From assembly GCA_943330235.2 (NCBI GenBank), contig CALQGY020000021.1:1-42328 (forward strand): 42,328 nucleotides of DNA, given 5' to 3'. Position 1 is the first letter of the stretch. Each line of letters begins with the position of its first letter. The stretch is from Candidatus Kuenenia stuttgartensis. Lineage in GTDB: Bacteria > Gemmatimonadota > Gemmatimonadetes > Gemmatimonadales > Gemmatimonadaceae. Of the stretch, positions 1-40,790 are shown piece by piece. The notes below the pieces were generated by a model. It was not told where the DNA came from and did no database searches. It saw only the letters and a program-made list of their open reading frames with translations. Both the position numbers and the translations under genes were made by a program.

Positions 1-1158
1 GCGCCAGCCGCGATCTTCCAGCGTGGGGGTGAGCGCCGTCGAGATATCGGCGTTGGCGTACTGATAGCGTTCGCCGCGCGCGTGCACATGCAGCCACGAC
101 GCCGGCTGCCACTGCGCGGACGCGTTGGCGGCGGTGTACGGCACGGGGCTAAAGGCGCCCCACAGCGTCCACAGACTGAAATACGGTTGATAGCGCCGCA
201 CGCCGCCCGAGAGCGCGTAGCGCGGACGCGTGTAGGTGAGCTCAAGGTCGGCGCTCCCCGGCCGGCCTTCGGCGAGGTTGTAATCCGCGCCGGCCACGAC
301 GCGCACCCGCGCGATACGCGCCGTCGCGGACAGCGCCGCCCGTTCCGACACGAACGCGTGCTCGACCGGATCCACCTCGCGTCGGTATTCGCCGCGTATA
401 TCAGCATATTTGTATACCCACGACGCTTCGGCGCCGGCCACCCACTGCCGGTCGCGCGGACGCCATTCGTCGAGCGGGTTGAGCGCGGGGCTCGTCACCG
501 CCAGCACCGCCGCCTGCCCCAGCCCCCAGCCGCCGTAGCCGGTGAGATCGAGCGAGGCTTGCTTGATATGCGCGCGGAGCTGCGCGCCATCAAAGCCAAT
601 GGGCTCGAGGCGCGACGACACCAGCTGCCGACCCGCGCGCGCCACCAGCGCCGCGCGCCGATACTCGAAATACCCTTCCAGCAGCTGCCCCGCGGGGACC
701 GTACCCGGTAACACCTGATCACGCCCGACATCGGCCACCACGCGCGCGGTGGCATGAAACGCGAGCCCCTCGACACCCAGCCCCCAGAGCACGAGGCTGC
801 TGGTGGTGGTCATGGGGAGCCCGTGCAACACGGCGCCCGGTCGCAGGAACTGGCATTGCCCCGTGGCGACACAGCGCACCGCAAAGCCGTCGATAGTCTG
901 CAGGCCACCATTGGCACCCGGTACCGCGAGCGACGCATCGATGCTGTCGCGCACGAGGCCGCGGAACGCGACGGCCTGCGCGCTGGCATCCACGCGGATG
1001 CGGTAGCTCTGCGCCGATGCCGCGGCCGGACACCACGCCAGCGCCATGAAGGCGGCGCGCCTGCGGATGCTTACGCGAATACGCATTCGACAATTCTTGC
1101 GAATACGCATAAGAACACTCACACAGATACGCATACAGATACTCATACGGATACTCAT
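1..1158 (-). CDS. beta-barrel outer-membrane protein, 3' end cut by window edge
   Basis: The minus-strand frame is open from 1158 to the window edge (386 codons seen). The ATG at 1158 overlaps the upstream cytochrome stop as ATGA, which suggests translational coupling. The first ~35 residues are a low-complexity Met/Arg/Ile/Ser stretch made by a short DNA repeat. In-frame ATGs at 1086 or 1047 would give a conventional signal peptide ending in ASAQS, so the true start is uncertain. The mature part has no hydrophobic helix. It alternates polar and aromatic/hydrophobic residues in paired strands with tight turns (for example VRVVAGADYNLAEGRPGS), as beta-barrels do. It follows two multiheme cytochrome genes, so the inferred role is the porin sheath of a porin-cytochrome conduit. 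It could instead be an unrelated barrel. No family was recognised by sequence. Confidence 0.72.
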   Translation of the reverse strand, partial: MSIRMSICMRICVSVLMRIRKNCRMRIRVSIRRRAAFMALAWCPAAASAQSYRIRVDASAQAVAFRGLVRDSIDASLAVPGANGGLQTIDGFAVRCVATGQCQFLRPGAVLHGLPMTTTSSLVLWGLGVEGLAFHATARVVADVGRDQVLPGTVPAGQLLEGYFEYRRAALVARAGRQLVSSRLEPIGFDGAQLRAHIKQASLDLTGYGGWGLGQAAVLAVTSPALNPLDEWRPRDRQWVAGAEASWVYKYADIRGEYRREVDPVEHAFVSERAALSATARIARVRVVAGADYNLAEGRPGSADLELTYTRPRYALSGGVRRYQPYFSLWTLWGAFSPVPYTAANASAQWQPASWLHVHARGERYQYANADISTALTPTLEDRGWR

Positions 1159-1163
1159 ACAGG
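1126..1163. repeat. degenerate 12-bp tandem repeat at the cytochrome/barrel gene junction
   Basis: Copies of a 12-bp unit close to gatactcatacg occur about three times in a row (variants gatacgcataca, gatactcatacg, gatactcataca). Looser copies built on gaatacgcat continue down to about 1077. The array starts in the stop codon of the upstream cytochrome gene and runs into the N-terminal codons of the barrel gene, where it encodes Met-(Arg/Ser)-Ile-(Arg/Cys) repeats. It could vary in length and so move the spacing between coupled start and signal peptide. Confidence 0.7.
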
Positions 1164-1904
1164 CGGCTTCGTCAGCTTCGCCTTGTACTGCGCGGGCGAC
1201 GCCTGGAAATGGCACTGCGTACATTCTCCGGCCACGTAGTGGTTCCGCGTTTTGTCGACGTGGCACGCGCCGCACAGTTGGCGCGTGGGGGTCAAGGCAG
1301 CGATGATGCGCGGCGTGTGGCAGGCGTCGCAGCCCTGGTGCGTGAGCGCCGCCGGCGTATGCGCCGCTGAGGGATTGGCCAACTGATGACAGGCCGTGCA
1401 TTCACGCCCCACGGCGTGGTGCTCGGTGTGACAGTCGTTGCAGGCCGCTTTCGTGGGCGCGGGGGCCATCGTGACCGGCGTGCTGTGGCACTCGGTACAC
1501 GGTCGGCTGGCGTGTCGCGCATGCACGAACATCACCGTGCGCGGTGCGGGTGCGCGCCCCGGCACCGACACCGTGACCGTCATGGGCTTGGCCACGCCAT
1601 AACGTTCAGCGCGGTGGCACGTCGCGCACTTATCGGGTGCGGGATTCTGGTGGTGACAGCTCTGACAGCCACGCGGTCGTTCAATGGTGACGCGTCCGTG
1701 TTGGTCGCCCGTGCCATGACAGGAGAGACAGGCCACCTTGGCGTGCCGGGCATGCGGGAACGAATCCGCGGCCGGTGCGGCCACGGTCGTCTGCGCGTGC
1801 AGATCGGCGGCGGTCCCGTCGACGGCAACGAGAACGACAAGCGCCGCGACAACCAGCCGAAGCTGGCGTGCGGCGCTCGCCCACCAAGACGCACTCACAA
1901 CCAT
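1155..1904 (-). CDS. periplasmic nonaheme cytochrome c (249 aa)
   Basis: The N-terminus is a signal peptide: hydrophobic residues ~17-30, then a likely cleavage near LHAQ. There are nine CxxCH heme motifs with first Cys at 59, 80, 93, 136, 155, 169, 192, 211 and 228. This is about one heme per 27 residues, a density typical of electron-wire cytochromes such as MtrA or c3/c7-type proteins. FPHARHA before heme 1 and FVHARHA before heme 4 suggest an internal duplication. It begins 17 nt after the nonaheme lipoprotein gene and ends in an ATGA overlap with the barrel gene, so the three are one operon. Inferred role: the periplasmic or barrel-inserted electron carrier of an outer-membrane conduit. 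Confidence 0.9.
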   Translation of the reverse strand: MVVSASWWASAARQLRLVVAALVVLVAVDGTAADLHAQTTVAAPAADSFPHARHAKVACLSCHGTGDQHGRVTIERPRGCQSCHHQNPAPDKCATCHRAERYGVAKPMTVTVSVPGRAPAPRTVMFVHARHASRPCTECHSTPVTMAPAPTKAACNDCHTEHHAVGRECTACHQLANPSAAHTPAALTHQGCDACHTPRIIAALTPTRQLCGACHVDKTRNHYVAGECTQCHFQASPAQYKAKLTKPPV

Positions 1905-1921
1905 GAAGAGCTCACGGGCAC

Positions 1922-3481
1922 CTACTTCGTGCCGTTCCGCGAAACCCGCATGGCGCTATTGAACTCGCCCCCGATGGGACCCGGCAACGCGGTGGCCTTG
2001 CTGGCCGCCGGCAACGCGTAGTAGCTGCGGACGTAGTTGATGGTGGCGATCATGAGCGACTCGCAGAGGAACGGATTGTGAATGCCCTTGGAGTTGTCGG
2101 CGTTCACTTGGTTGAACTCGCCGCACAGCCGCGCATTGAACTCGGCGCCTTCAGCCGGCGTGATGATGTTGTCCGTCGTACTCCACTCACCCGGCTTGGT
2201 GAGCTTGAGCGTGGCCAGCAGACCGCCGTCCGAGGGCGACGACTGCAGCGTGCCATTGAGGTTCGTGTCAATCCACAATTGATCGGCGTAGAACTTCATG
2301 CGGCTGCGCACCGTCGCGAAAGCGGTAGCGGCCACGGCCGCGTTCGCGTGACAACCACTGGCGGCGCACGTCTGCCACGAGCGGGCCGTCGCGGTGTACG
2401 CGCAGCTCTTGTCCGCCGTCGGCTTGCCGGTCGTGGCATCAAGACACGGGACCGGACGCATGAGGTGTCCCGTGGCCTGGAAGCTGAACGCCCCCGTGGC
2501 CTTGTCCGTCACGGTGAAACGTCCCACGTGACAGCCCGCACACAACTTTGGATTCTTGGTCGTCGCGTGCGATCCGAAAATGCGCGCCGTATCATACGCA
2601 AAGCCGGGCGGCCGATAGCCCGCGAAACCGAGCAGCATCGCGCCCTGCGGCGCGTGCGGCGAGCTGGACGTGACGGTGGGCTCGGCGCGATTCAGGTGGC
2701 ACTTAATACAGAGATTCTGCTCGGGATCAGTCGACGTCACCGGGAAGCGCAGCTGCGCAGGGTTGCCCGATCCGTGCGGATTATGACAGACCGTGCACGA
2801 CGTGGAGACATACGCGGTAGGATCGGACTTCTCAGCATAGTTGCCCACGACGCCCCACCGCTCCAGTGCCTTCCGCCCTTCATGGCAACCGGAACACGAC
2901 GCATTCGAGGCGCGCGAGACGTTGATCGTGGCGTGTCCCGACTGCGCCCACTCTTCCGCGAACGGTTGATGCGTGCCGGAGTGACAATCGCCGCAGGTGC
3001 CGGTGCCGGTCATACTGAGCTTGGCCAACGGGCGCACGATGGACGCCTGCCCCACGCCTTCCACATGCTTGAGTCCCGCGCCGTGGCAGCTTTCGCACTG
3101 CACGTCGAGATACGTGGAATCGGCCACCTTGCTGTAGCCAGCCACCGTACCGCTGGCCGCGTTGCCCTTGCCGGTCAGCGTATGACAGCTGAGGCACGCC
3201 GGATCCTTGGTCGTGCCGGCATTGTAGTTCGCATACGCGCTGGCATGCTTCGTGGTCTTCCACGTCGCCTGCTGCCCCGCGTGACAATTCCCGCACGTGG
3301 TCTGCTTGGTGGACACGTTGTAATAGCCCAAGAAACCCGTGGTGGCATCCTTGGGACTATTAAACGGCGCGCGATCACGATAGACAATTTTGTCGTCTGT
3401 ACATCCCGACACCACAGTGAGCGCCGTCAGCGCCAGGGTGAGATGCCAGAGACCGCGAGTGACGGAGTGTGCCATTCGCAT
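1922..3481 (-). CDS. outer-membrane-type multiheme cytochrome c lipoprotein (519 aa)
   Basis: The chosen ATG at 3481 has a GAGGG Shine-Dalgarno sequence about 8 nt upstream; longer in-frame starts up to 3649 exist but lack a signal peptide directly after them. The N-terminus has a hydrophobic stretch ending in the lipobox VVSGC, so this is a lipoprotein. Eight CxxCH motifs are present (CGNCH, CLSCH, CESCH, CGDCH, CSGCH, CTVCH, CIKCH, CAGCH). A ninth site is CAASGCH at 2348-2368, a CX4CH variant. The arrangement resembles cytochrome c554-like multiheme proteins. It is first in a leftward operon with a periplasmic nonaheme cytochrome and a beta-barrel protein. Inferred role: terminal, possibly surface-exposed, partner of a porin-cytochrome conduit. 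The lipid anchor side is not proven. Confidence 0.88.
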   Translation of the reverse strand: MRMAHSVTRGLWHLTLALTALTVVSGCTDDKIVYRDRAPFNSPKDATTGFLGYYNVSTKQTTCGNCHAGQQATWKTTKHASAYANYNAGTTKDPACLSCHTLTGKGNAASGTVAGYSKVADSTYLDVQCESCHGAGLKHVEGVGQASIVRPLAKLSMTGTGTCGDCHSGTHQPFAEEWAQSGHATINVSRASNASCSGCHEGRKALERWGVVGNYAEKSDPTAYVSTSCTVCHNPHGSGNPAQLRFPVTSTDPEQNLCIKCHLNRAEPTVTSSSPHAPQGAMLLGFAGYRPPGFAYDTARIFGSHATTKNPKLCAGCHVGRFTVTDKATGAFSFQATGHLMRPVPCLDATTGKPTADKSCAYTATARSWQTCAASGCHANAAVAATAFATVRSRMKFYADQLWIDTNLNGTLQSSPSDGGLLATLKLTKPGEWSTTDNIITPAEGAEFNARLCGEFNQVNADNSKGIHNPFLCESLMIATINYVRSYYALPAASKATALPGPIGGEFNSAMRVSRNGTK

Positions 3482-3762: not shown

Positions 3763-6153
3763 ATGACTGCTGTCGATCGGCGAACGTTCCTGAAGCGTGT
3801 GGTCGCCGCGTCTGCGGCCACCGCGACGTCGGCGGCGGCCAGCACCGCCACCGCCAGGGAACCCTCTGCCTTGGCGCAGCCAGTCGATGCGTCCGCGACG
3901 AATCCGGTATGGAAGAAGGCCCCGTGCGTCATGTGCGGCGTTGGCTGCGGCCTCTTGGTGGGCATTGAAGGCGGTCGCGCGGTGGCCGCGAAGGGCGATC
4001 CGGCCTCGTCGGTCGGCGACGGGCTTGCCTGCGCGAAGGGCTACTACGCGGTACAAGCGCTGTACGGTCGCGACCGGCTGAAGCGCGCGCGCATTGCACG
4101 TGGCGCCGCGCCGGTGGACGCACCGATTGGCGAAGCGCTCGATCTGGTCGCTACCCGCCTGCGCGACACCATCGCGCAACATGGCCCCGACAGTGTGGCG
4201 ATGTACGGCTCGTCGCAGTGGACGATCCCAGATGCCTATGTGGCCGCCAAGCTGTTCAAGGGGGCCATCGGCACCAACAACATCGATACCAGCACGCGCC
4301 TCACCGCAGCCGCGGCGATGACGGGACTCGAGAGCACCTTCGGCATGGACGGCGCGCCGGGATGCTACGACGATATCGAGCACGCGGATGTGATCGTGCT
4401 GTGGGATGTGAATCTCGCCGAATCGGATCCGGTGCTGTTCTCGCGCATGCTGGCGCATCGTAGCCGTAATCCGGCCGTACGCATCATCGACGTGTCGTCG
4501 CGCACCACGCGCACGAGCTACGCGGCCGACCAGACCATTGTGCATGCGCCGCGCGCCACGCAGTCAATCGCCAACGCCATCTGTCAGGACATTGTCGCCA
4601 AGCAGCAGATGCACCGAGCCTTTGTCGACCGGTATGTGTCGTTCAAACGGGGCGCATCAGGGTTGGGCTATGATCTGACGAACGACCAACTGGTCGCCGA
4701 GAGCGCCGTCAGCGCGACATGGGACGATTACGTCGCCTCGCTGGCCGATACGACGCCGGATCACGTGCAGCAGACGTTTGGGGTGCCGGCCGCGCGCATT
4801 CAGTGGTTGGCCTCGCTCTTCGCCGATCGCACGCGCACGGTGATGTCGGTGTGGGGAGACAACGTGAACCGCCAGGTGCGCGGCACCTATGCCAACAACG
4901 CGCTCTACAACGTGCATTTGTTGGTCGGCAAGATCGCGACGCCGGGCAACACCGCGCTGAGTCTGACGGGGCAACCCAACGGCGGGAGCGTCATGCACGA
5001 TGCCGGCTCACTGGCGCCGTCGCTGCCACGCGGGCTTGTCTTCAACGCCGCCGACCGGCAGCGTGCCGCGACCATGTGGGGCGTGCCCGTACAGCGCATC
5101 AGCGCGAAGCCCGCGCGCACGGCGATGGCGCTCTTTCGTGCCGTCGAGCGCGGGGAGATCCGGTTCCTGTGGATTCAGGGCACCGACCCGATGGTGAACG
5201 TCCCAGGCTTCGAGCGCTATCGACGCGCCATGCAGCAGCGAGGCTGCTTTGTGGTGGTCTCGGACGTGTACCCGACGGCCACCACCGCGATCGCAGACGT
5301 GGTACTACCCTCGGCACTCTGGTTCGAGCGCGAAGGGATCACCGGCAACGCCGAACGTCGTCTGCAGCACTTTGACCTCATGACGCCACCACCCGGCGAC
5401 GCGATGAGCGAGGCGTGGCAGATGATTGAAGTCGCGCGACGACTGGGCCACGGCGCACTGTTCCCGAGCGAACGCCGCGGCCACGTGGAGCGCGTGTGGG
5501 ACGAGTATCGTCGCTTTCACGAAGAGCCGCCGAGCGCGGCAGGTAGCGCTTCCCACAGCACAGCACACACCTCACTGCCCACGTTCAGCGCGCTCAAGGC
5601 GACCACCGGACAATGCTGGCCGGTGATCGCTGGGCAGGAGACGCTCCGACGCTACAACACGGCGCTCGACCCCAGCGCCGATCGTGCACGTGGCGCCTAC
5701 GACTTTTACGGACACGCGGACGGGCGGGCGTGGATCTGGCTACGCCCCAACGATCCGCCGGCCGAGTCGCCGAGTGCCGCGTATCCGTTATGGCTCTCGA
5801 CGGGTCCGTCGCTCGAGCACAGCGGGACGGGCGCGCTCACGCAGCGCATCCCCGTGCTGCATGATGCCCTCCCCCATGCGTATGTCGAGATGCATCACGA
5901 CGACGCCACGCACGCCGGTATTCGCGACCGCGATCTGGTGCGCGTGACCAGCAAGCGCGGATCGATCGACCTCGAAGCACGCATTGACTTCCGCTCACAG
6001 ACACCGCGCGGCCAGCTGTTCGTGCCCACGTTTGATGCCGAGCGTCCGGTCGCGCGCCTGATGCTGGAGGCGTGTTGTCCGCTCTCCGGTCAGCCCGACA
6101 CGACGCTCTGTGCCGTGCGTATCGCCCGCGTGGCGGTGGCCGGTGACCGTTGA
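3763..6153 (+). CDS. NapA-like molybdopterin oxidoreductase with Thr at the Mo-ligand position (796 aa)
   Basis: The start at 3763 places a Tat motif, DRRTFLKR, at residues 5-12, so the folded cofactor enzyme is exported. An N-terminal [4Fe-4S] site is intact: C55, C58, C62 and C90, followed by K92. The body follows NapA closely, with NNID at 172-175, FGMD, GCYDDIEHAD, YANNALYN, SLTGQP and a C-terminal guanine-dinucleotide-binding domain. Where NapA has R-H-C-M, with Cys binding molybdenum, this protein has R179-L180-T181-A (codon 4303-4305), in gap-free alignment. Other active-site positions also differ (NRQVRG for NapA's NQHTRG; GG for CG after LTGQP). The substrate is therefore unclear. 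It heads an operon with NapB-like and tetraheme cytochromes, a ferredoxin and NrfD. NapD and NapC are absent. Confidence 0.9.
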   Translation: MTAVDRRTFLKRVVAASAATATSAAASTATAREPSALAQPVDASATNPVWKKAPCVMCGVGCGLLVGIEGGRAVAAKGDPASSVGDGLACAKGYYAVQALYGRDRLKRARIARGAAPVDAPIGEALDLVATRLRDTIAQHGPDSVAMYGSSQWTIPDAYVAAKLFKGAIGTNNIDTSTRLTAAAAMTGLESTFGMDGAPGCYDDIEHADVIVLWDVNLAESDPVLFSRMLAHRSRNPAVRIIDVSSRTTRTSYAADQTIVHAPRATQSIANAICQDIVAKQQMHRAFVDRYVSFKRGASGLGYDLTNDQLVAESAVSATWDDYVASLADTTPDHVQQTFGVPAARIQWLASLFADRTRTVMSVWGDNVNRQVRGTYANNALYNVHLLVGKIATPGNTALSLTGQPNGGSVMHDAGSLAPSLPRGLVFNAADRQRAATMWGVPVQRISAKPARTAMALFRAVERGEIRFLWIQGTDPMVNVPGFERYRRAMQQRGCFVVVSDVYPTATTAIADVVLPSALWFEREGITGNAERRLQHFDLMTPPPGDAMSEAWQMIEVARRLGHGALFPSERRGHVERVWDEYRRFHEEPPSAAGSASHSTAHTSLPTFSALKATTGQCWPVIAGQETLRRYNTALDPSADRARGAYDFYGHADGRAWIWLRPNDPPAESPSAAYPLWLSTGPSLEHSGTGALTQRIPVLHDALPHAYVEMHHDDATHAGIRDRDLVRVTSKRGSIDLEARIDFRSQTPRGQLFVPTFDAERPVARLMLEACCPLSGQPDTTLCAVRIARVAVAGDR

Positions 6154-6965
6154 GTGATCGCCCGCGCGTCGGACTGCCATGGCTGCGACTGGTGGCCGTC
6201 TCGGTCACGCTGGCCGCAGTCGCCTTCGTGGGCGTGCGCCTCATGCAGCACCAACCGCTGTGGCCGAGACGCTCGACGGACGTCGCGACACGCTCGACCG
6301 CGTCAGCGCGCGACGGAGACGAGATGATGCGCGACACGATGCTGCCCGCCGACCGCTCGACCGTGCGACCGATCGCGGCCGAAGCGCAGGTGTTTCGCAC
6401 CACGATGGACATGCTCTCGATCGGGGCCGCTGCGGGACCACGACGGCCGGCACATCCGCGCTCACTCGCACGCTATCGGAGCCTGCGCGCGTATCCGGGC
6501 GCGCCACCACGAATCCCGCATGGGCTCACCGCCACCGAATATCGCGAAACCGCGTGCAAGGGCTGCCACGAACGCGGTGGATTCTCGGCGCGCTTTGAAG
6601 CGTATGTGCCCGTCACACCGCACCCTGAACTCGGCGCGTGTCTGCAGTGCCACGTCGGCAACGCCGTGCTGATGGCCATTCCGCTGCCGACGGCCGATCC
6701 CAGTTCGCGCTGTCGGCAGTGCCACGTGCCCGGCGGTCCGCGCGCGAGCACCGGCTCCATCGACTGGCGCACCACGGCGTGGCCGCAAGTGGCGCACGTC
6801 ACCGCGGGGCGCAATCCACCGCCTATTCCGCACGACTCGCCCATGCGCACGAACTGCCTCTCCTGTCACGCGAGTCCGTCGGGCGTCGCGGAAATCCAGA
6901 CGACTCACCCCGAGCGAGCGAATTGCCGGCAATGCCACGTCCAGTCATCCGCGAGTGCGCCATGA
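6150..6965 (+). CDS. NapB-like membrane-anchored pentaheme cytochrome c (271 aa)
   Basis: The frame begins with TTG at 6150, overlapping the preceding stop (TTGA). Starting there keeps a single N-terminal membrane segment (residues ~12-31), so this unusual start is preferred. Five CxxCH motifs begin at 136, 164, 188, 236 and 259. Two blocks share the plan PPxIPH ... CxxCH ... HPE ... CxQCHV (residues ~118-168 and ~222-263), which indicates an internal duplication. That plan matches cytochrome subunits of periplasmic nitrate reductases (NapB) in form. Overlap on both sides (TTGA, ATGA) supports translational coupling. Inferred role: it passes electrons to the NapA-like subunit. Confidence 0.85.
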   Translation: MSDRPRVGLPWLRLVAVSVTLAAVAFVGVRLMQHQPLWPRRSTDVATRSTASARDGDEMMRDTMLPADRSTVRPIAAEAQVFRTTMDMLSIGAAAGPRRPAHPRSLARYRSLRAYPGAPPRIPHGLTATEYRETACKGCHERGGFSARFEAYVPVTPHPELGACLQCHVGNAVLMAIPLPTADPSSRCRQCHVPGGPRASTGSIDWRTTAWPQVAHVTAGRNPPPIPHDSPMRTNCLSCHASPSGVAEIQTTHPERANCRQCHVQSSASAP

Positions 6966-7822
6966 GGCGGCTCCGGGCGGGACCACGCACCGTGCGCGCG
7001 GCACGCACGCTGTTCACCGGCGCCCTGAGTGTCTGGGCATTCGCCGGCTGCATCGGCAAAGAAGCCACGAAGCATTCGCCGTATGCGGCGCAGAAGGCGG
7101 CGAAAGAGGCCGCCGAGCACGGCGGGCCCGAAGCGGACCGCGAGACCGGCGGCACGAGCGACGCGGATACCGCCATCACACCCGCTGCCCGGCACGCCGA
7201 CTCGCTCCGCAAGGCTGCGAACGCACTCCGCGAGCCCGGTATGCTGAGCACCGTCAAGACCGAGCGCGTGGTGGGCTTCACGGGCGCCGGCCAGCAACCG
7301 TTTGAGGTGACCGTGCGCACCGCCACGCCCGCCACCGCGTTGGTGCGTCGCTTCGGCACCATCACCATGCGGAACTCGTTGCGCGAGCGCACGCCGGATC
7401 TGGGGCAGTATCCCTGCGCGTCCTGCCACTTAGGACGCGGCGTGGTCATGGCCGATGCACGCATCGGCGATGCGCACCAGAACATCAAACCCGTGCATCC
7501 GCTGCAGACAGGCGGCGTCTGCGCGACCTGTCATTCACCGGACAACGTCGAGCAGCTGACGCTCAAGAGCGGACAGAAGGCGTCGTTGGATCACGCCTAC
7601 CGCCTCTGCGCACAGTGCCATTTCAGTCAGGCCGAAGCCTGGGCTGGCGGCGGCCACGGCAAGCGCCTGGACGGATGGCAGGGACGCCGCGTTGTCATGG
7701 GCTGCGCCGACTGCCACAACCCGCATCATCCTGCCATTGAACCGCGAATCCCGTTCCGAGCGCCGCGCATTGCGCGCCGCCGGAATACTGATCGGGGAAC
7801 CGACCGAGGCACTGATAAATGA
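6962..7822 (+). CDS. tetraheme cytochrome c lipoprotein (286 aa)
   Basis: The ATG at 6962 overlaps the preceding stop (ATGA). The N-terminus has a basic segment, a hydrophobic core and the lipobox AFAGC, so the protein is probably lipid-anchored. An Ala/Lys/Glu-rich linker (~30-90) precedes the heme part. Four CxxCH motifs are visible: CASCH, CATCH, CAQCH and CADCH. The last sits in CADCHNPHHPA, a form common in c3-like respiratory cytochromes. The gene ends in another ATGA overlap with the ferredoxin gene. Inferred role: electron relay between the NrfD/ferredoxin module and the NapB-like cytochrome. Confidence 0.87.
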   Translation: MRRLRAGPRTVRAARTLFTGALSVWAFAGCIGKEATKHSPYAAQKAAKEAAEHGGPEADRETGGTSDADTAITPAARHADSLRKAANALREPGMLSTVKTERVVGFTGAGQQPFEVTVRTATPATALVRRFGTITMRNSLRERTPDLGQYPCASCHLGRGVVMADARIGDAHQNIKPVHPLQTGGVCATCHSPDNVEQLTLKSGQKASLDHAYRLCAQCHFSQAEAWAGGGHGKRLDGWQGRRVVMGCADCHNPHHPAIEPRIPFRAPRIARRRNTDRGTDRGTDK

Positions 7823-8802
7823 TTGGCAAGACGAGTGACACCGTGAGCACCAAGGCGGACGCCCAGCAGGACACGTTGCTGCAGAAGACGGTGGACCGTC
7901 GGCGCGCGTTGGGCATTCTGCTGGGGGGCGCGGCGGTTGGTGTTCAAGCGATGGCCGCCTGCACGCCCACCAGTCCGCTGCCGGACGAGTCGAAAGAGCT
8001 CAAGCTGCTGGCGTGGCGTGAGTACATCAAAGGCAACTACCGTACGATGACCGAGGCCGAGCGCCACGAGACGATCGCGCGGCTGGAGCGCGCGGCGAAA
8101 CTCAAGCGCGGTGTTGACGTGAAGATTCAGTCGACCGACGCGCAGCCGGGCGTGGAGTTCGGCTACGCGTTCAACATCTCCAAGTGCCAAGGCTTCCGCA
8201 GCTGCGTGGATGCGTGCATCAACGAGAACAATCTCGACCGCGACGCCGACACGCAGTACATCCGCATCTTCGAGATGAAGGACGGCGAGATCAATCTCGA
8301 TGAGGCCGATGCCTCCTTTCAGCACGAGGTGCCGGCCGAAGGGCACTTCTACCTCGGCACGCAGTGTTTTCAGTGCGCCGATCCGCCATGCGTGAAGGTG
8401 TGCCCGGTGGGCGCGACGTGGCAGGAGCCCGATGGCATCACCGTCATCGACTACGACTGGTGCATCGGATGTCGCTACTGCATGGCCGCGTGTCCCTACT
8501 GGGCGCGACGCTTCAACTGGAGCGCCCCCGAAGTGCCGGCCCCTGTACTCAATCCGAACCAGCACTACCTCGGCAATCGCGCGCGCAAAGCCGGCGTCGT
8601 CGAGAAGTGCACATACTGCATACATCGCACACGACAAGGGCGGCTGCCCGCATGCGCGGAGGCCTGCCCCACGGGCGCGCGCGTGTTCGGCAATCTGCTC
8701 GATCCGGATTCGGAGATTCGATGGGTGCTCGAGCACAAGAAGGTGTTCCGGTTGAAGGAAGACCTGAAGACTGAGCCGCGATTCTGGTATTACACCGACT
8801 GA
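7819..8802 (+). CDS. Tat-exported four-cluster ferredoxin subunit, NrfC/PsrB type (327 aa)
   Basis: The start overlaps the previous stop (ATGA). A Tat-like DRRRALGILLGG motif lies at residues 26-37, followed by AMAAC, which may also be lipidated. Four cluster motifs follow. Clusters II (C183, C186, C191, C195), III (C215, C218, C221, C225) and IV (C264, C267, C279, C283) are complete. The first motif reads C123-x2-F126-x2-C129-x3-C133, so Phe replaces its second Cys. Family members normally pass electrons between an NrfD-type membrane protein and a molybdoenzyme or cytochromes, which fits the operon. The changed motif could hold a [3Fe-4S] cluster, a changed-potential cluster, or none. Confidence 0.92.
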   Translation: MIGKTSDTVSTKADAQQDTLLQKTVDRRRALGILLGGAAVGVQAMAACTPTSPLPDESKELKLLAWREYIKGNYRTMTEAERHETIARLERAAKLKRGVDVKIQSTDAQPGVEFGYAFNISKCQGFRSCVDACINENNLDRDADTQYIRIFEMKDGEINLDEADASFQHEVPAEGHFYLGTQCFQCADPPCVKVCPVGATWQEPDGITVIDYDWCIGCRYCMAACPYWARRFNWSAPEVPAPVLNPNQHYLGNRARKAGVVEKCTYCIHRTRQGRLPACAEACPTGARVFGNLLDPDSEIRWVLEHKKVFRLKEDLKTEPRFWYYTD

Positions 8803-8809
8803 GAGACGC

Positions 8810-10024
8810 ATGCATCTGAAGTCATTCGGCATCAGCGCGCTCCACTCGGCGACCACCGGGGGACGACGCTATCAGGTATGGATGGGCATCCTCACGCTCA
8901 TCATGCTGGTGGGCGGGTATTCCTATTTTCTGCAGTTGCGCGACGGACTCGGCGTCACCGGCATGACCGACCAGGTGAGCTGGGGATTGTACATCTCCAA
9001 CTTCACATTCCTGGTTGGTCTCGCCGCGGCGGCGATGATGTTGGTGCTCCCCGCCTATATCCTGCACGACGTGGACTTCGGTCGGGCGGTGCTGATGGCG
9101 GAAGCTGTCGCCGTGGCCGCGCTCGTGATGTGTCTGGCGTTTGTCGTTGTGGACATCGGCAATCCCTTCGGCAGCTGGCACCTCATCCCGGTCATCGGCT
9201 ATCTCAATTGGCCGCGATCACTGCTGGCGTGGGACGTGCTGGTATTAAACGGGTATCTCGCGCTCAATCTGGCGATTCCGTTTTACATCATTTACAGCCG
9301 CTACTGCGGCCGCTCACCCGAAAAGAAGAAATATCTGCCGTGGATGTACATCGCGGTGATGTGGGCGGTGAGTATCCACTTGGTGACGGCGTTTTTGCTC
9401 GCGGGGCTACCCGCACGGCCGTTCTGGAACGATGCGTTGCTGGGTCCGCGCTTTCTGGCGTCGGCGTTCACCGCGGGTCCGGCGTTCGTGATCATTCTGC
9501 TCTCCATCATTCGAAAGCACACCGCGTACCCGATCGCCGACGGCGCGTTTTCGAAACTCGCGCTCATCACGGCCGTCACCGCGCAGATCAACTTGGTGAT
9601 GCTAGGGTCGGAGCTGTTTTACAAGTTCTACTCGCCCACGCATCATGGGATCAATGCGCAATATCTGTTTTTCGGACTGAACGGACATCATGCGCTGGTG
9701 CCGTGGATCTGGACGGCGATTGCCTTGAACGTGGTGGCGACGGTGTCGCTGATGATTCATCCCATCCGCACGAACCCACGGTATCTGATCGTGGACTGCA
9801 CGATGCTGTTCGTGGCAATCTGGATTGAGAAGGGGATGGGGCTGATTGTGCCGGGGTTTGTGCCGTCGCCGCTCGGTGAAATCGTGGAGTACTCGCCCAG
9901 CCTGATCGAAGTCGGGGTGACCGCCGGCATCTGGGCGCTGGGGATGTTTGTGCTGACGGTGTTGGTGCGGGTGGCGTTGCCCATCGAGCTGGGCGAGGTC
10001 AGGAGCCCGCACTTGGCGCGCTGA
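8810..10024 (+). CDS. NrfD/PsrC-family integral membrane quinol module (404 aa)
   Basis: The protein is almost entirely hydrophobic helices, roughly eight to ten, from residue ~22 to ~390. The family (NrfD, PsrC, HybB, ActC) exchanges electrons between membrane quinone and a periplasmic ferredoxin subunit. The gene begins 7 nt after the ferredoxin gene and is last in the operon, ahead of a strong hairpin. With the Tat ferredoxin and cytochromes it would form a menaquinol-linked module replacing NapC or NapGH. The direction of electron flow cannot be read from the sequence. Confidence 0.92.
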   Translation: MHLKSFGISALHSATTGGRRYQVWMGILTLIMLVGGYSYFLQLRDGLGVTGMTDQVSWGLYISNFTFLVGLAAAAMMLVLPAYILHDVDFGRAVLMAEAVAVAALVMCLAFVVVDIGNPFGSWHLIPVIGYLNWPRSLLAWDVLVLNGYLALNLAIPFYIIYSRYCGRSPEKKKYLPWMYIAVMWAVSIHLVTAFLLAGLPARPFWNDALLGPRFLASAFTAGPAFVIILLSIIRKHTAYPIADGAFSKLALITAVTAQINLVMLGSELFYKFYSPTHHGINAQYLFFGLNGHHALVPWIWTAIALNVVATVSLMIHPIRTNPRYLIVDCTMLFVAIWIEKGMGLIVPGFVPSPLGEIVEYSPSLIEVGVTAGIWALGMFVLTVLVRVALPIELGEVRSPHLAR

Positions 10025-10055
10025 AGCCGGCTTCTCGTTCGTCTTACATTTTTCT

Positions 10056-10086
10056 CTGGCCGCCTCGCCCTCCGCGAGGCGGCCAG
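10056..10086 (+). terminator. hairpin terminator after the molybdoenzyme operon
   Basis: A 13-bp perfect GC-rich stem (ctggccgcctcgc / gcgaggcggccag) with a 5-nt loop starts 32 nt after the NrfD stop. Only three T residues follow, so the U-tract is short, but the stem is very stable. It separates the respiratory operon from the ModE-like remnant. Confidence 0.75.
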
Positions 10087-10106
10087 TTTGACGTTCTGGA
10101 GCCCTG

Positions 10107-10375
10107 ATGTCGCTAGCCAAGCGCCCTACTTCGACACGCACGTCCGCTACGAAGACCGGCTCACCCGCCGTCCGTCTGCGCGTGCTCGCCGACTCGGTCA
10201 TCGCCATGGGACCAGGAAACGCCCATCTCCTGAAAGCCGTCCACGCGAACGGTTCGATCTCCGCAGCAGCCGCAGCGCTCTGGGGATGAGCTATCGACCC
10301 GCTTGGCTGCTGGTGCACACCATGAACACGGCATTCCGCGCCCTGCGCATCGCTCCGCGCATCGGCCCGCTGCTC
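10107..10375 (+). pseudogene. truncated, frameshifted ModE-type regulator remnant
   Basis: The frame from ATG 10107 gives 60 residues ending in LRVLADSVIAMGPGNAHLL and NGSISAAAAAL, which match the start of the ModE/LysR-type helix-turn-helix domain. It then meets a stop at 10287-10289. The continuation of that domain, GMSYRPAWLLVHTMNTAFR, appears in another frame from about 10284 to 10340. A frameshift near 10277 has thus split the domain. After AFR the homology ends and the frame becomes the signal peptide of the receptor gene. The rest of a ModE protein, including any molybdate-binding domain, is absent. ModE proteins sense molybdate, which is notable next to a molybdoenzyme operon. Confidence 0.65.
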
Positions 10376-13300
10376 GCCCTGCTTATCGTGGTCACCACGC
10401 CGAGGCTCGCCGCCGCACAGTCCGGGGAGTCCATCGTCGTGGGCGCCGTCCACGAGGCCGGCGGCCGCCCCATCGCTGACGCCCAAGTCACCGCGCGCAA
10501 TCGTGCCACAGGCGCGCAATGGACGCTGCGCAGCAGCTCCGCCGGACAGTTCGCATTCGTGCAGCTCCCACTTGGCGGTCCCTATGACGTCACCGCCTCC
10601 CGTATTGGCTTCGCGTCGCTTACCCACCGCAACCTGACGCTCGCGCTCGGTCGCCGACTCACCCTCGACTTCACATTACGGGCCGCCTCATCGACGCTTG
10701 CGCCGGTGAACATCACCACGATGGCGACGAGTACAGGGGGCAATCGACTTATTGACGCGGCGCAGCTGGCGGCGGTCCCCACGCCGGGGCGCAACTTCAC
10801 CGACCTGGCAGCGCTCGCGCCCACCAGTGGACCGCAACTCTCACTACTCGGTCAACGATGGACCGGCACCGACATCCGCATCGACGGCGTCCAAGCGCGC
10901 AACATGCTGCGCGCGGGTGAATTGGGCGCGGGCCCCTTCACGCTGTCACTCGAAGCCATTCGCGAGTTCGACGTGCGCACCGTCGACTTCGACGTGACAC
11001 AAGGGCGCCAAGGCGGTGGCGCGATTCACACCGCGACCAAGTCCGGCACGAACGAGTGGACCAGCACCGTCTTCTCATACTTTCGCGGCAGTGATCTCGC
11101 CGCACCGTCCGATTTTCAGGCGCGCAGTCGCGAGCAACGGGAGTTCAGTAATTGGCAGTGGGGAGGCAGCGTTGCGGGACCGCTGGTCCAAAATCGTGCG
11201 CACCTGCTCATGGCCTTCGACCGGCAGGATGCGAACGAGCCGCTGTTCAGCGGACTGGTACAGACGCCGGCCGACGAACGCGCCATCGGTATTGCCCGCG
11301 ATTCGCTCATACGGGCCCTACGCATTCTCTCGCAGACGTATGGCCTGGACACCTCCCGCGCGCAGATCGGGCGCCTCGACCGACGCCCCGTCTCGAATGC
11401 GCTCTTTACCCGACTCGACTGGGCGCTGACGCCGGAGCATTTGCTGACGGTATCCAACACGTTCAATCTGTGGAGCAGCCCACTGAGCGGCGGCGTCGAC
11501 CAACCCGTCACGCTCTTCGAGGCGCGCGCGAACTACGAAAGCACCGAGCAGCTGACGACCGCGCGCCTGCGATCCACCTTCGCGTCGGGGTGGCAAAACG
11601 ATCTCACGCTCGCGCTCTCCTCCTCGCAGCGCTCGCTTACGCCCAATAGCACCCTGCCGCGCGGATTCGTGCGGATTCAATCGCAGTTGGCTGATGGCAG
11701 TGCGGGTGATGCGCGCGTGCAGTTCGGCGGCAATCGCCTCGCGCCCGATGACAGCCGCGAACGTGGCCTGCAACTCATCAACCAGAGCACGATCCAGCGT
11801 GGTCGTGTGCTCTGGTCGCTCGGGACCGACAACGCGCTCTCATCGCTCACGACGTATATCGCGGAATCGCAGGGCGGGTTGTTTGAATTTCAGTCGCTGT
11901 CCGATCTCGAGGCGCGACGCGCATTTCGCTATTCGCGTACGGTGCCGCTGACCGAACGCCAAGCGACGACGCATCAGAAGGTGTTGGAGATGGGTGCCTT
12001 TGCGCAGGCCGAGTGGCGCCCGTCGGCTCGACAGAGTGTGACGGCGGGACTCCGCTGGGACGGCACCGCGTTTCTCAATGCTCCCGAGCGCAACGCGAGC
12101 CTGGAGCAGATGCTGGGCCAACGCCTCGACCGCGCACCGCGGGATTGGTCGAAGTGGCAACCCCGCCTGCAGTACACATGGGACCGAGATGGCGATGGCC
12201 GCGAGGTATTCCGCATCGGCGGCGGCCGATTCGCGGCGCAACCCGTCTACTACCTCCAGCACAATCAGCTCCTGAACGACGGGCGACGCATCGCCGATAT
12301 CACACTGACGGGCTCCGCGGTCCCGACGCCGGACTTCGCACGCTATCGCGCTGACGCGAGTACGATTCCCGGAGTACCGACCACCCTCGCGGTGCCGCCG
12401 TACGTCAACATCGTCGATCCGTCGTTTCGCACACCGAGCGTCTGGAAGACCAGCGCGTCGTACCAGCGGCCCGTGGGCGCGCATCTGACGGTTGCCGCGA
12501 CAGTGCTCGCGTCTCGTACGACGGGGAACTACATGTACGTTGATCGCAACCTGCGCGATGCGCCGGCCTTCCGATTGTCGGCTGAGCAGGAGCGCCCGGT
12601 GTTCGTCCCCGCCGCGAGCATTGATGCCGCAGGGCGCACGCTCAACACCAACGCGCTGGCCGACCCGCGACTCGGTCGCGTATTGGCACTGACGTCCGTT
12701 GGCGAATCGACCAGTCGTGCCGCGATCATGGAAGCGCAATGGCGCCTGCCGCGCGCCGCACAGATCGACGTGTCGTATACCAACAACCGCTCGCGCGACA
12801 ACACGACCTTCGGCTGCTGTCTGGCGCGCACCGCGACCACGTTCACGGCGGTCCCGGGCGATCCCCGGGATCTCTCGACGACGTGGGGTCCATCCGACCT
12901 CAACTTCCGCCACAAAGTCGTCATCGCGGGCACGCTGCCGACGGTGTGGGGGATTCGCCTGGGTGGTCGCTACGTCGGCAGTAACGGACGCCCGTTCTCG
13001 GCCGTCGTGAACGGCGATATCAACGGCGACGAGTCGACCAGTAATGATTTGGCCTTCGTCTTCGATCCCGATGATCCGGCAACGCCGTTGAGCGTTGCCG
13101 AGTCCATGCGTCGCGTGTTGTCCAATCCGCGCAACGTGGCCAGCGGATACCTGCGCGCTCACCTTGGCCGATTGGCGACACGTAACGGCGCCACCGCGCC
13201 GTGGATCGAGCGCATCGATGTACGCGCGTCACGCGAAATCCGTACGGGACGCGGGCAGTCGATTGAAATCGCCCTCGACGTATTCAACGTTGCCAACCTC

Positions 13301-13513
13301 GTCAACGCGCAATGGGGAGCCGAGTATCAGCTCCCCATGGGGATATCGAATCAGAACCCGGTGGTGCAGCGCGTGCCGCTGCTGAACGTGGTGGCCTTCA
13401 ATCAAGCCACGCGGCAGTACACGTACACCGTCAACGAAAACTTCGGCGTCCTGCAGAAAGCCGGCAATCCGTATCAGCTGCAGCTCTCGGCGCGCTATCG
13501 CCTGTTGCGATGA
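10322..13513 (+). CDS. TonB-dependent receptor, Oar-like, with N-terminal carboxypeptidase-regulatory-like domain (1063 aa)
   Basis: The ATG at 10322 gives a clean signal peptide (hydrophobic LLALLIVVTT, cleavage near LAAAQS). Residues ~35-120 form a CarboxypepD_reg-like beta-sandwich, with GGRPIADAQVTA and a later GFASLTHRN. A plug-like region follows (NFTDLAALAPT, DIRIDGVQ, GGGAIHTATKSGTN). The rest is a long barrel with aromatic-rich strands, ending in LQLSARYRLLR. Oar-like receptors take up large or unknown ligands across the outer membrane with TonB energy. The frame is open upstream into the ModE-like remnant, so the start codon lies inside sequence that once encoded a DNA-binding domain. 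No SusD-like partner follows. Confidence 0.88.
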   Translation: MNTAFRALRIAPRIGPLLALLIVVTTPRLAAAQSGESIVVGAVHEAGGRPIADAQVTARNRATGAQWTLRSSSAGQFAFVQLPLGGPYDVTASRIGFASLTHRNLTLALGRRLTLDFTLRAASSTLAPVNITTMATSTGGNRLIDAAQLAAVPTPGRNFTDLAALAPTSGPQLSLLGQRWTGTDIRIDGVQARNMLRAGELGAGPFTLSLEAIREFDVRTVDFDVTQGRQGGGAIHTATKSGTNEWTSTVFSYFRGSDLAAPSDFQARSREQREFSNWQWGGSVAGPLVQNRAHLLMAFDRQDANEPLFSGLVQTPADERAIGIARDSLIRALRILSQTYGLDTSRAQIGRLDRRPVSNALFTRLDWALTPEHLLTVSNTFNLWSSPLSGGVDQPVTLFEARANYESTEQLTTARLRSTFASGWQNDLTLALSSSQRSLTPNSTLPRGFVRIQSQLADGSAGDARVQFGGNRLAPDDSRERGLQLINQSTIQRGRVLWSLGTDNALSSLTTYIAESQGGLFEFQSLSDLEARRAFRYSRTVPLTERQATTHQKVLEMGAFAQAEWRPSARQSVTAGLRWDGTAFLNAPERNASLEQMLGQRLDRAPRDWSKWQPRLQYTWDRDGDGREVFRIGGGRFAAQPVYYLQHNQLLNDGRRIADITLTGSAVPTPDFARYRADASTIPGVPTTLAVPPYVNIVDPSFRTPSVWKTSASYQRPVGAHLTVAATVLASRTTGNYMYVDRNLRDAPAFRLSAEQERPVFVPAASIDAAGRTLNTNALADPRLGRVLALTSVGESTSRAAIMEAQWRLPRAAQIDVSYTNNRSRDNTTFGCCLARTATTFTAVPGDPRDLSTTWGPSDLNFRHKVVIAGTLPTVWGIRLGGRYVGSNGRPFSAVVNGDINGDESTSNDLAFVFDPDDPATPLSVAESMRRVLSNPRNVASGYLRAHLGRLATRNGATAPWIERIDVRASREIRTGRGQSIEIALDVFNVANLVNAQWGAEYQLPMGISNQNPVVQRVPLLNVVAFNQATRQYTYTVNENFGVLQKAGNPYQLQLSARYRLLR

Positions 13514-20867: not shown

Positions 20868-20975
20868 GGCGATCTCCGAAGCAAGGTGATGGCCCGATCG
20901 TCACGCGATCGGTGCTCATCTGAGAAAGCCGAACGCGTCGCCAAATCAGCTCATGCGCAGTAGAATTTGCGGGTC

Positions 20976-23561
20976 ATGTCTACCCAATCCCAAGAACGCT
21001 GGCGTCTGATTGAATCCGTGTTTGCCGCCGTCCTGTCGGAGGCGCCGTCATCGCGCGACGCGGCGGTGCGGGCGGCCTGCGGGGACGACGTCGCGCTGCG
21101 CGATGAGGTGATGGCCCTGCTCGCGGCACACGATCGCACGGGGAAGATGGATCGGTTGGCCGCAGACGTGGCACCGTTGGCCGCGTCGCTCCGCGCCACA
21201 CCGCTCGAGGGACGCGTCATTGGGCGCTACCGGTTGGCGGACAAGGTGGGCGGCGGTGGCATGGGCGTGGTGTATCACGCGCGCGATGAGCAGCTCGGCC
21301 GCACGGTGGCACTCAAGTTCCTGCAAGCGCACCTGGTCAGCGACAAGATCGCGGCCGAACGCTTTCGTCAGGAGGCGCGAACGGTCGCGGCGCTGGAGCA
21401 TCCGAACATCTGTTCGATCTTCGAGATCGGCGAAACGGACGACGGACTGCTGTACCTGGCCATGCCGTACTACGAAGGCGAAACCGTGCAAGAGCGCGTG
21501 GCGCGCGGACCGCTGTCAATTGAACAGGCGGTCGGCATCACGCTGCAGGTGCTGCGTGGCCTCGCCAAGGCGCACGCGCGCGGCATCATTCACCGCGACA
21601 TCAAGCCGTCGAATGTGCTCATCACGGCCGATGAATTGGTCAAGCTGCTCGACTTCGGCGTTGCGAAACTCGCGGACGTGACGCTGACGGGGACCTTGGC
21701 GGGGCCGATTGGCACGGTGGCCTACATGAGCCCCGAGCAAGCGCTGGGCGCACCACTCGATGCGCGCAGTGATCTGTGGTCGGTGGGGGTCATGCTGTAC
21801 GAAATGCTCACGGCGCAACGCCCGTACGTGAGCGGTGTGGCCGCGGCGATGACCGGCGACCTGCGGCAGCCGTTGCCGTTGACGCTTCGTGAACTCCGCG
21901 CTGAGGTATCTCCGGCGCTCGACGCCATCGTGGCGAAAGCGCTCGCCCGCCGCGCCGATCAGCGCTACCAGAGCGCCGCGGACTTCGAGCACGCGTTGCA
22001 GGCGCTGGGCATCGCCACGATCAGCGGCGACGTCGTGAGCGACCGTCACCGCGCCCCGTCGTCGTTCATCGGCGCGCGATGGACACGCGTGGCGATCGGT
22101 GCCGCGGTCCTCGTGTCTCTCGCTGGTATCTGGATTACGATGCGTCGCCCGGTCTCGCCGGCGCCGACGGTCGCTGCCGTTGGCGCGTTACCGTCGCTGG
22201 TGGTGCTGCCGCTTGTGGATCGCAGCGAGAAGCGCGACCAGCAGTATTTCGCCGACGGGCTGACAGAGGAAATCATCTCGACGCTCGCGCGCGTCGATGG
22301 CCTGAAAGTGGCCTCCAGCACATCGTCGTTCGCGTATCGTACGCGCACCGAAGACATACGCACGCTCGGCGCCAAACTCGGCGTGACGCACGTGGTTGAA
22401 GGAAGCCTGCAGCGCGTGGGGGATCAACTGCGCGTCACGGCTCATCTCATCAGCGTCAGCGACGGCTTGCAGCTCTGGACGCAGCCCTTCGAGCGAACGG
22501 CCGGCGACGCGTTCGCGCTACAGCAGGACATCGCGGCGGCCGTCGCGCGGGCGTTGCAGGTGAAGCTGGTCGTCGGCAGCACGGATTCATCATCGGTGCG
22601 CCCGGATGCGGCCGCCTACGAGTTGTATCTTAAAGGTCGTTACGCGTGGGCTACGCGGACCGAATCCAGCATGCGCGTCGCTCTCCGGTTCTTCGAGCAA
22701 GCCGCGCAAAAGGATTCTCTGTACGCGCCAGCGCTGGTGGGTGCCGCCGATGCCAATGCCGTGCTCGGGTTCTACGACTATCTCGCGCCGGCCGACGCGT
22801 TCCCCAAAGCCGAGGCTGCGGCGCGCCGCGCCATTGCGCTCGATCCAACGCTGGCCGCGCCGCATGCGACATTGGGGTACGCCGCGCTGTACTACCACTG
22901 GGATCTCGCTGGCGGAGAAAATGCATTCAAGCGCGCCATTCAGCTCAACGACGACTACGCCACCGGCCACCAGTGGTACGGCAACTTGCTCACCGCCGCC
23001 GGCCGGTTCCCAATGGCGGTGCAGGAAATGCAGCGCGCGCAGCAGGTCGATCCCCTCTCGTTGATTGCCAAGGCCGCCGAGGCATGGGTACACCATTTCG
23101 CCGGCGAGAATGCGCTGGCCCTGCAGCGACTGCGCAGCGTGTTCGCGACGAACCCCGACTTTGCGGTGGCGCTCACGTGGGGTGGGGATGCGCTAGCCGA
23201 GATGGATTCGTTGCCACAAGCCATTGCCATGCACCGACGCCTGCTCGCGCTCTCGGACAGTAGTGCACTCAATATTGCCACGCTGGCGCGCACGCTCGCG
23301 GTGGCCGGCCAGCGACCGGAGGCGCGCCGCCTGCTGGATGTACTGCTGTCGCGCAATGCGGCCGGGAAATACGTGCCGTCGTACGACGTGGCAAAAGTCT
23401 ACGCGGCGCTCGGTCAGAACAGCGACGCGTTTACCTGGCTCGAGAAGGCCCGTGTACAGCGTTCGCATTCCATGGTGTTCCTCAAGGTCGATCCGGCATT
23501 GCGCGCGTTGCGACGCGACAACCGCTTTCCGGCGCTGGTGGCCCAGGTCCTTCCCGAGTGA
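20976..23561 (+). CDS. membrane Ser/Thr protein kinase with FlgO/TolB-like and TPR domains (861 aa)
   Basis: Residues 1-75 are the helical leader seen in ECF-linked kinases. The kinase domain has a Gly loop GGGGMGVVY (92-100), K114, HRDIKPSN (206-213), DFG (227-229) and YMSPEQ, so all catalytic residues are present. One membrane segment follows near 370-390. Then comes a domain beginning LPSLVVLPLVDRS ... YFADGLTEEIISTLAR, as in adenylate-cyclase/FlgO-type TolB-like modules, and then TPR repeats to the end. The kinase is cytoplasmic and the sensor part extracytoplasmic. It is translationally coupled (GTGA) to an ECF sigma gene, a probable target or partner. The ATG at 20976 is preferred to an in-frame TTG at 20967. 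Confidence 0.93.
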   Translation: MSTQSQERWRLIESVFAAVLSEAPSSRDAAVRAACGDDVALRDEVMALLAAHDRTGKMDRLAADVAPLAASLRATPLEGRVIGRYRLADKVGGGGMGVVYHARDEQLGRTVALKFLQAHLVSDKIAAERFRQEARTVAALEHPNICSIFEIGETDDGLLYLAMPYYEGETVQERVARGPLSIEQAVGITLQVLRGLAKAHARGIIHRDIKPSNVLITADELVKLLDFGVAKLADVTLTGTLAGPIGTVAYMSPEQALGAPLDARSDLWSVGVMLYEMLTAQRPYVSGVAAAMTGDLRQPLPLTLRELRAEVSPALDAIVAKALARRADQRYQSAADFEHALQALGIATISGDVVSDRHRAPSSFIGARWTRVAIGAAVLVSLAGIWITMRRPVSPAPTVAAVGALPSLVVLPLVDRSEKRDQQYFADGLTEEIISTLARVDGLKVASSTSSFAYRTRTEDIRTLGAKLGVTHVVEGSLQRVGDQLRVTAHLISVSDGLQLWTQPFERTAGDAFALQQDIAAAVARALQVKLVVGSTDSSSVRPDAAAYELYLKGRYAWATRTESSMRVALRFFEQAAQKDSLYAPALVGAADANAVLGFYDYLAPADAFPKAEAAARRAIALDPTLAAPHATLGYAALYYHWDLAGGENAFKRAIQLNDDYATGHQWYGNLLTAAGRFPMAVQEMQRAQQVDPLSLIAKAAEAWVHHFAGENALALQRLRSVFATNPDFAVALTWGGDALAEMDSLPQAIAMHRRLLALSDSSALNIATLARTLAVAGQRPEARRLLDVLLSRNAAGKYVPSYDVAKVYAALGQNSDAFTWLEKARVQRSHSMVFLKVDPALRALRRDNRFPALVAQVLPE

Positions 23562-35329: not shown

Positions 35330-35343
35330 GCACCGGCAGATTC

Positions 35344-36084: not shown

Positions 36085-36094
36085 GTGTTGGCCA

Positions 36095-36118
36095 ATGAGC
36101 ACATACTGATGAGCACAT
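36095..36118 (+). repeat. duplicated start-codon region at the lutA/lutB junction
   Basis: The 10-bp string atgagcacat occurs at 36095 and again at 36109 (14-bp period). The first copy opens a 4-codon frame that stops at TGA 36107-36109, so its stop overlaps the second ATG, the chosen lutB start. An earlier ATG at 36081 overlapping the lutA stop likewise encodes only five residues before TGA. Confidence 0.7.
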
Positions 36119-40739: not shown

Positions 40740-40790
40740 GCCCAGTTGCGCATGATGGATGCGCGCGTTCCACTCTTCGCCAACAGGCCC

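Follow-up and report, generated by a model that had tools for sequence, protein, structure and literature searches.

How might electrons pass between the quinone pool and the cell exterior at a locus where multihaem cytochromes and an outer-membrane barrel lie back to back with what resembles a nitrate reductase operon? This question is raised by a 42,328-nucleotide stretch of Gemmatimonadota DNA (GenBank assembly GCA_943330235.2, contig CALQGY020000021.1), hereafter the window, which makes up the whole of contig C21 in a 4.02-Mb genome that comprises 223 contigs and is 91.6% complete (G000). Inspection of the start of the window and of its continuation on a second contig reveals four genes, A to D, that very likely encode a porin-cytochrome conduit with its own barrel family. 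Divergent from gene A, across a gap of 281 bases, stands an operon of five genes whose first product is related to the nitrate reductase NapA and lacks the cysteine (Cys) ligand of molybdenum (Mo). We favor, at a probability of roughly 60%, the reading that these nine genes form one electron-transfer island in which the A-B-C-D conduit is joined to a quinone complex with a NapA-derived subunit devoid of an Mo site. The narrower proposition, that NapA was converted once into an Mo-free relay, giving up its active site but retaining its iron-sulphur (FeS) cluster and its quinone module, and now serves as inner-membrane port to the conduit with this barrel family, stands evenly balanced in our estimation.

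The probable conduit cassette and its barrel

The first-pass annotation, made from the window alone, had placed a lipoprotein cytochrome with nine haems, a compact nonahaem periplasmic one and a beta-barrel protein in one operon and had counted 27 haem motifs in the island. Both descriptions hold, with 9 + 9 + 5 + 4 motifs in genes A and B and in the pentahaem and tetrahaem genes of the divergent operon (Table 1). The three-component conduit drawn there has to be enlarged, since the set has four genes and the invariable partner of the barrel is a 16-haem gene outside the window. The start codon of the barrel gene, C, is uncertain (1158, 1110 or 1047). As had been proposed, the gene was completed from flanking sequence: bases 1-220 of the window align, reversed, to G000:C8:1-220 with 3 mismatches, which suggest near-identical strains, and the joined gene reaches a stop at C8:625 that is overlapped by gene D, whose product has an apparent Sec signal. 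The join is supported because the joined protein is nearly identical to a full-length barrel homologue of 483 aa (P0001), encoded in one piece on an 89-kb contig and differing at 2 residues, and it is also consistent with the C-D gene order of relatives. At its 5' end (1103-1162), within the putative signal-peptide region, the barrel gene contains short degenerate tandem repeats with periods of 6, 12 and 24, and a change in their length could give the protein a different start.

Table 1 Features of the cassette and the divergent operon (window positions unless a contig is named)
Feature	Position	Strand	Details
Gene A, lipoprotein multihaem cytochrome	3481..1922	minus	519 aa; 8 CXXCH + 1 CX4CH
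Gene B, periplasmic 9-haem cytochrome	1904..1155	minus	249 aa; 9 CXXCH
Gene C (first part), outer-membrane barrel	1..1110	minus	open reading frame open at base 1, continuing to C8:625
Gene D, 16-haem cytochrome	C8:622-2109 (outside window)		495 aa; 16 CXXCH
NapA-derived subunit	3763..6153	plus	Tat-type RR motif; four FeS cysteines; Thr at Mo-ligand position
Pentahaem cytochrome	6150..6965	plus	5 haem motifs
Tetrahaem lipoprotein cytochrome	6962..7822	plus	4 haem motifs; lipobox by eye
DsrO-like iron-sulphur electron-transfer subunit	7819..8802	plus	NF045797 189.7 bits (cut-off 200); Fer4 domains
DsrP/NrfD quinone-interacting membrane subunit	8810..10024	plus	NF045798 396.4 bits (cut-off 350); PF03916 E 9e-30

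Comparison of P0001 with Pfam returned no family (best E 0.13, a lectin domain), and comparison of the barrel with NCBIfam returned no model at E ≤ 1e-50, the part in the window giving none at E ≤ 1e-3. The MtrB_PioB family (PF11854) did not match P0001 even at E 10 and was not found in a search across the genome of the window. In a sample of 160 genomes from the phylum, 13 encode MtrB_PioB barrels that score above cut-off, this genome not among them. On these scores the barrel is outside the MtrB family. In one genome (G010) an MtrB_PioB barrel (C5:375226-377112) and a barrel of the window's family (C5:387746-389215) share a contig, with about 10.6 kb between them. The strand prediction that had been recommended was obtained from a model built with 26 sequences (predicted local distance difference test, pLDDT, 74.4; predicted template modelling score 0.64), in which 23 long strands enclose no plug and whose size comes closest to that of plug-stripped TonB-receptor barrels.

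Among the same 160 genomes, 44 carry the barrel family at E ≤ 1e-10, distant members included, and 40 of these loci were fetched (those of G029, G090 and G117 and the window's own, split over two contigs, were omitted). At every one of the 40, the gene that directly follows C is D. It has 16 haem motifs in 30 loci and 9 to 18 in the remainder, some of which are cut by contig ends. Directly upstream of C, a script identified B at 27 loci, A at 6 and a different multihaem cytochrome at 3; at the remaining 4 it found nothing. Within the genus, 4 of 30 genomes contain gene A, and these are also the 4 that contain the barrel (chance 3.6e-5, kinship ignored). A scan by two peptide patterns placed the barrel in 16 named records, all from Gemmatimonadota, a method that leaves room for other phyla. 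At locus L040 (G106 C262), two large multihaem open reading frames with 23 and at least 32 CXXCH follow the cassette (6941-11814).

As lower bounds among the candidates scored (E ≤ 0.001), the barrel has at least 819 homologues and the gene A lipoprotein at least 1,455, and the gene set is therefore not a product of chance. Of the gene A homologues listed, 111 of 120 have the lipobox pattern and 114 of 120 the CX4CH motif. The core of gene A resembles the MtrA chain 6r2q_A weakly (E 2.8e-4 as a single sequence, 5.7e-5 as a profile), and the DmsE/MtrA-type model TIGR03508 gives it 52 bits against a cut-off of 192. Gene B usually encodes 17-19 haems in relatives, and the 9-haem version in the window aligns to the C-terminal half of those compared. 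The first-pass annotation had considered that a barrel of an unrelated porin family, or genes that do not co-occur, would speak against a conduit and had called for a search for conserved synteny; the barrel has no match to a known porin family, and the genes co-occur across genomes.

The cassette follows the gene-cluster rule of the porin-cytochrome complex (Pcc), represented by OmbB-OmaB-OmcB of Geobacter, in which genes for a barrel, a periplasmic multihaem cytochrome and an outer-membrane lipoprotein cytochrome are adjacent. According to PMC4245776, Pcc barrels have 18-22 strands and the periplasmic cytochromes 5-14 haems; the window barrel has 23 long strands in its pLDDT-74 model, and the partners in the cassette have 16 and 9/18 haems. 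Unlike Pcc, the window conduit has a linked quinone complex. MtrCAB and PioAB likewise combine a barrel with multihaem cytochromes but differ from the cassette, which has no MtrB_PioB barrel and has 9, 9 and 16 haem motifs in place of the decahaem MtrA and MtrC. What survives of the earlier MtrCAB/OmcB assignment is a porin-cytochrome conduit, now with a linked quinone module; the likeness is one of parts, and the cassette is set beside OmbB by description. For the phylum, one Gemmatimonadetes MtrCAB is named in PMC8805035, and a table in PMC6295460 lists Gemmatimonadetes with 1 CbcL-type and 2 ImcH homologues.

The NapA-derived subunit

The divergent operon had been read as a quinol-linked NrfD, ferredoxin, cytochrome and molybdoenzyme operon. 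The DsrP/NrfD, DsrO-like and cytochrome components stand, and the supposed molybdoenzyme is a NapA descendant lacking the Mo ligand. The protein aligns to NapA over most of its length, and at the ligand position four of four NapA chains compared have Cys where the window protein has Thr. Residues were counted in the 120 homologues listed (P0241-P0360) of 2,329 matches. The ligand Cys is absent from all 120, the site being occupied by Tyr (93), His (17), Ala (6), Ser (2), Thr (1) or Gly (1); the sole Thr belongs to P0241, a near-copy of the window protein with 2 residues differing. Lost from all 120 as well are the Met after the ligand site, the Arg of QPxACGxxRE (His in 109) and the Arg of the TGR motif, and the Gly of WGxN is Asp throughout. 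Several of these altered motifs presumably contact the molybdopterin guanine dinucleotide cofactor. The four FeS cysteines are intact in 120 of 120, with Lys beside the fourth in 118 and a twin-arginine translocation (Tat)-type RRxF in 100. An error of the window's own assembly was considered as a source of the Cys loss and rejected, the loss being common to 8 other genomes and the listed homologues. Because the Mo ligand is absent, this subunit is probably not an enzyme.

The NapA model PRK13532 (cut-off 904) accepts two proteins that keep the ligand (Cys-type; 933 and 953) and rejects three that do not (Cys-less; 651, 745 and 754), the window protein being the lowest. Under the NapA model TIGR01706 (cut-off 930.55) the same Cys-type proteins score 905 and 926 and the Cys-less ones 633 (the window protein), 725 and 734. 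The neighbouring pentahaem cytochrome gives a weak, sub-threshold score with the NapB model PF03892 (18.8 bits, cut-off 25.1). By eye, 29 of the 120 listed Cys-less relatives bear a source name of the 'nitrate reductase' kind, which is likely misannotation.

A NapA-family protein (E ≤ 1e-100) is present in 14 of the 160 phylum genomes, Cys-less in six (G000, G047, G081, G095, G113, G106) and Cys-type in eight (G013, G136, G117, G100, G075 with two copies, G104, G150, G007). In a tree of 34 sequences (9 Cys-type and 25 Cys-less, 16 of the latter from the 120 listed; midpoint root for drawing only), all Cys-less sequences fall on one side of a single branch with support 100/100. The protein of G013 is nearest to them with support 91/82, below the tool's mark for firm support. 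Within family f1, 8 of 179 genomes carry a NapA-like gene, Cys-less in all eight, and these eight fall within the 10 genomes that have a close barrel (E below 1e-180, the next score being 6e-54 and the line set after the scores were viewed). In all eight the Cys-less gene adjoins gene A divergently, the barrel of G113 lying on another contig; the contig of G106 is too short to show the position of the gene relative to A.

A Cys-type operon stands beside the cassette in G013 alone, directly after D on the same strand (L048 1392-14101); for the other seven Cys-type genomes the sequence retrieved, in some cases short, held nothing that could be recognised as A, C or D. The arrangement in G013 is possibly a conduit-to-nitrate chain and likely a forerunner of the Cys-less state. 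The order of events was likely that a working Nap operon came to lie beside the conduit, after which the NapA active site was lost and the complex retained. NapD (PF03927) was found in 0 of 9 Cys-less genomes, that of the window included, as against 5 of 8 Cys-type genomes, four of them above cut-off (Fisher p 0.009, or 0.029 counting four; kinship uncorrected, and two Cys-less genomes 77 and 81% complete). Identities were compared by BLAST for four genomes per set, using open reading frames from stop to stop, the Cys-type genomes being more distant kin. Mean identity is 67% for NapA and 84% for DsrP in the Cys-less set and 73% and 71% in the Cys-type set; the two cytochromes average 62% and 68% in the former and 45% and 38% in the latter. 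By this measure the former enzyme is less constrained than its partners in the Cys-less set.

Proposed electron path and competing explanations

In the path we propose, the divergent operon would encode an inner-membrane quinone:cytochrome oxidoreductase. Its DsrP/NrfD subunit would oxidise quinol or reduce quinone, either direction being conceivable, and electrons would move via the FeS clusters of the DsrO-type subunit. The NapA-derived subunit, its Mo site and its nitrate reduction presumably lost, may relay electrons via its kept [4Fe-4S] cluster, be passed along its flank or act as mere scaffold of the complex. The pentahaem and tetrahaem cytochromes would then deliver to the conduit, where B and D would lead across the barrel to A. 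Gene C is predicted to form a wide plugless barrel, with B joining the conduit to the periplasm, A most likely at the cell surface and D most likely acting as the wire, either running inside the barrel or docked onto it. D is preferred in that role because no copy was encountered without C; the rival candidate is A, since its core resembles MtrA. The sequence itself documents which genes are present, their synteny, their conservation and the missing ligand; how the parts assemble, which way and by what path electrons move, the loss of the cofactor, the exposure of A and the extracellular partner are deduced from these.

Known complexes offer partial parallels. NapA shares full-length homology, the N-terminal [4Fe-4S] cysteines and a Tat-type signal with the window subunit, which differs in lacking the Mo-ligand Cys, the Met and Arg residues and a detected NapD and in scoring under both NapA cut-offs. 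QrcABCD, as described in PMC6303296 and PMC13059093, also combines an Mo-free large subunit with a multihaem cytochrome, an FeS subunit and an NrfD-type membrane subunit; the window large subunit, in contrast, is of NapA descent, keeps its FeS cysteines and scores 55.5 bits with the QrcB model NF041783 (cut-off 440). Alternative complex III resembles the operon in its Mo-free molybdoenzyme relative, pentahaem cytochrome and NrfD-type subunit, whereas ActB fuses the Mo-like and FeS parts that the window encodes separately, together with a single NrfD gene. The Dsr complex shares the DsrP membrane subunit, but DsrM, DsrK and DsrJ are not in the operon, where the search was made, and a NapA-like gene and two cytochromes precede DsrO and DsrP. 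One reported case, the metagenome-assembled genome OFTM248 (PMC10732223, a Planctomycetota/KSB1 study), has a cluster like alternative complex III beside a porin-cytochrome complex; an NrfD-type complex thus adjoins a conduit there too, though the cluster is of the ActD type without a molybdopterin subunit. Like the QrcB- and ActB-type subunits of other complexes, the Nap complex has most likely become a relay, here from quinone to conduit.

Several observations weigh against this interpretation. Tyr is common at the ligand site, and the loss of the cofactor is read from residues alone; moreover, TIGR01706 is failed by the Cys-type proteins as well, and NapD was not found in 3 of 8 Cys-type genomes (G013, G104, G150). 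Two of the 10 close-barrel genomes in f1 (G010 and G275) have no operon, so the conduit does not need it, and a barrel of the wider family is present as well in 6 of the 8 Cys-type genomes, so a working Nap and a conduit coexist. The structure model of D is poor (pLDDT 62), and the MtrA likeness sits in A rather than in D.

An unlikely alternative, in our judgement, is that the NapA-derived subunit keeps an Mo cofactor without the Cys ligand and converts a new substrate, in a reaction that the conduit ties to an extracellular donor or acceptor. The retained FeS cysteines, adjacent Lys and RRxF motif would suit such an enzyme, and AioA and IdrA are tabled without an amino-acid ligand in PMC10100899, AioA still holding Mo, which tells against our interpretation. 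An enzyme of this kind is, however, difficult to reconcile with a ligand position that varies among Y, H, A, S, T and G, with the fact that, of 207 columns showing no variation among the Cys sequences, 25 (including the WGxN Gly, now Asp) are replaced in 90% or more of the Cys-less ones, with the failure to find NapD in any of the nine Cys-less genomes and with the faster evolution of this subunit relative to its partners. We give somewhat less credence still to the idea that conduit and operon are merely neighbours in separate chains, the operon feeding a periplasmic partner. The gene's divergent position next to A in every family genome that carries it argues against this, as does the related Cys-type operon after D in G013, although operon-free cassettes exist. 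A substitute quinone module beside operon-free cassettes was sought and rejected: among 10 neighbour proteins at six such loci, eight had a family, none of them a quinone enzyme, and two had no family, so the conduit would be fed otherwise elsewhere.

Highly improbable, finally, is a barrel that serves as an ordinary porin or transporter, with cytochromes confined to the periplasm and no crossing of the outer membrane. Foldseek does rank general porins and ushers at the top for the barrel model, with MtrB at rank 8 (template modelling score 0.42), and the surface exposure of A is something we infer. The constant pairing of the barrel with a D cytochrome at 40 of 40 loci nevertheless matches the pairing rule of porin-cytochrome clusters given in PMC4245776.

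Wider relevance and neighbouring genes

If correct, this reading means that the Mo/W cofactor has been lost once more in the superfamily, besides cofactor-less QrcB and the three losses of the Mo/W-bis-pyranopterin guanine dinucleotide counted in PMC10100899, which tables FhcB, Nqo3 and ActB without cofactor. It would also provide a clear example of an enzyme becoming a relay; in G013, a living relative, a Cys-type operon still stands beside the same cassette. We know of no other NapA-derived loss of this cofactor. Gemmatimonadota are common in soil, and the predicted extracellular electron transfer would run via a barrel overlooked by MtrB-based searches. Many 'nitrate reductase NapA' entries from the phylum are probably not nitrate-reducing, which is relevant to denitrification surveys. 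A literature search without supplements, preprints or most subscription papers turned up neither this barrel family nor a NapA lacking the Cys; earlier notice is possible, for example in the supplements of PMC11475568, a survey of about 60,000 genomes.

Directly after dsrP, the window encodes a large barrel protein of the outer membrane that contains a CarboxypepD_reg domain (10088-13513; PF25183, PF13620), and a second NrfD-family gene of the same genome lies at C152:706-1674. Further along are a Ser/Thr protein kinase-like protein (20967-23561; PF00069, E 1.9e-46) and adjacent CCG-domain and LUD/Fer4_8 proteins (35224-37497), which we take to resemble the lactate-utilisation proteins LutA/LutB. 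Toward the end of the window, positions 40746-42272 encode a member of the Beta-lactamase domain family (PF00144), to which many esterases and peptidases belong as well.

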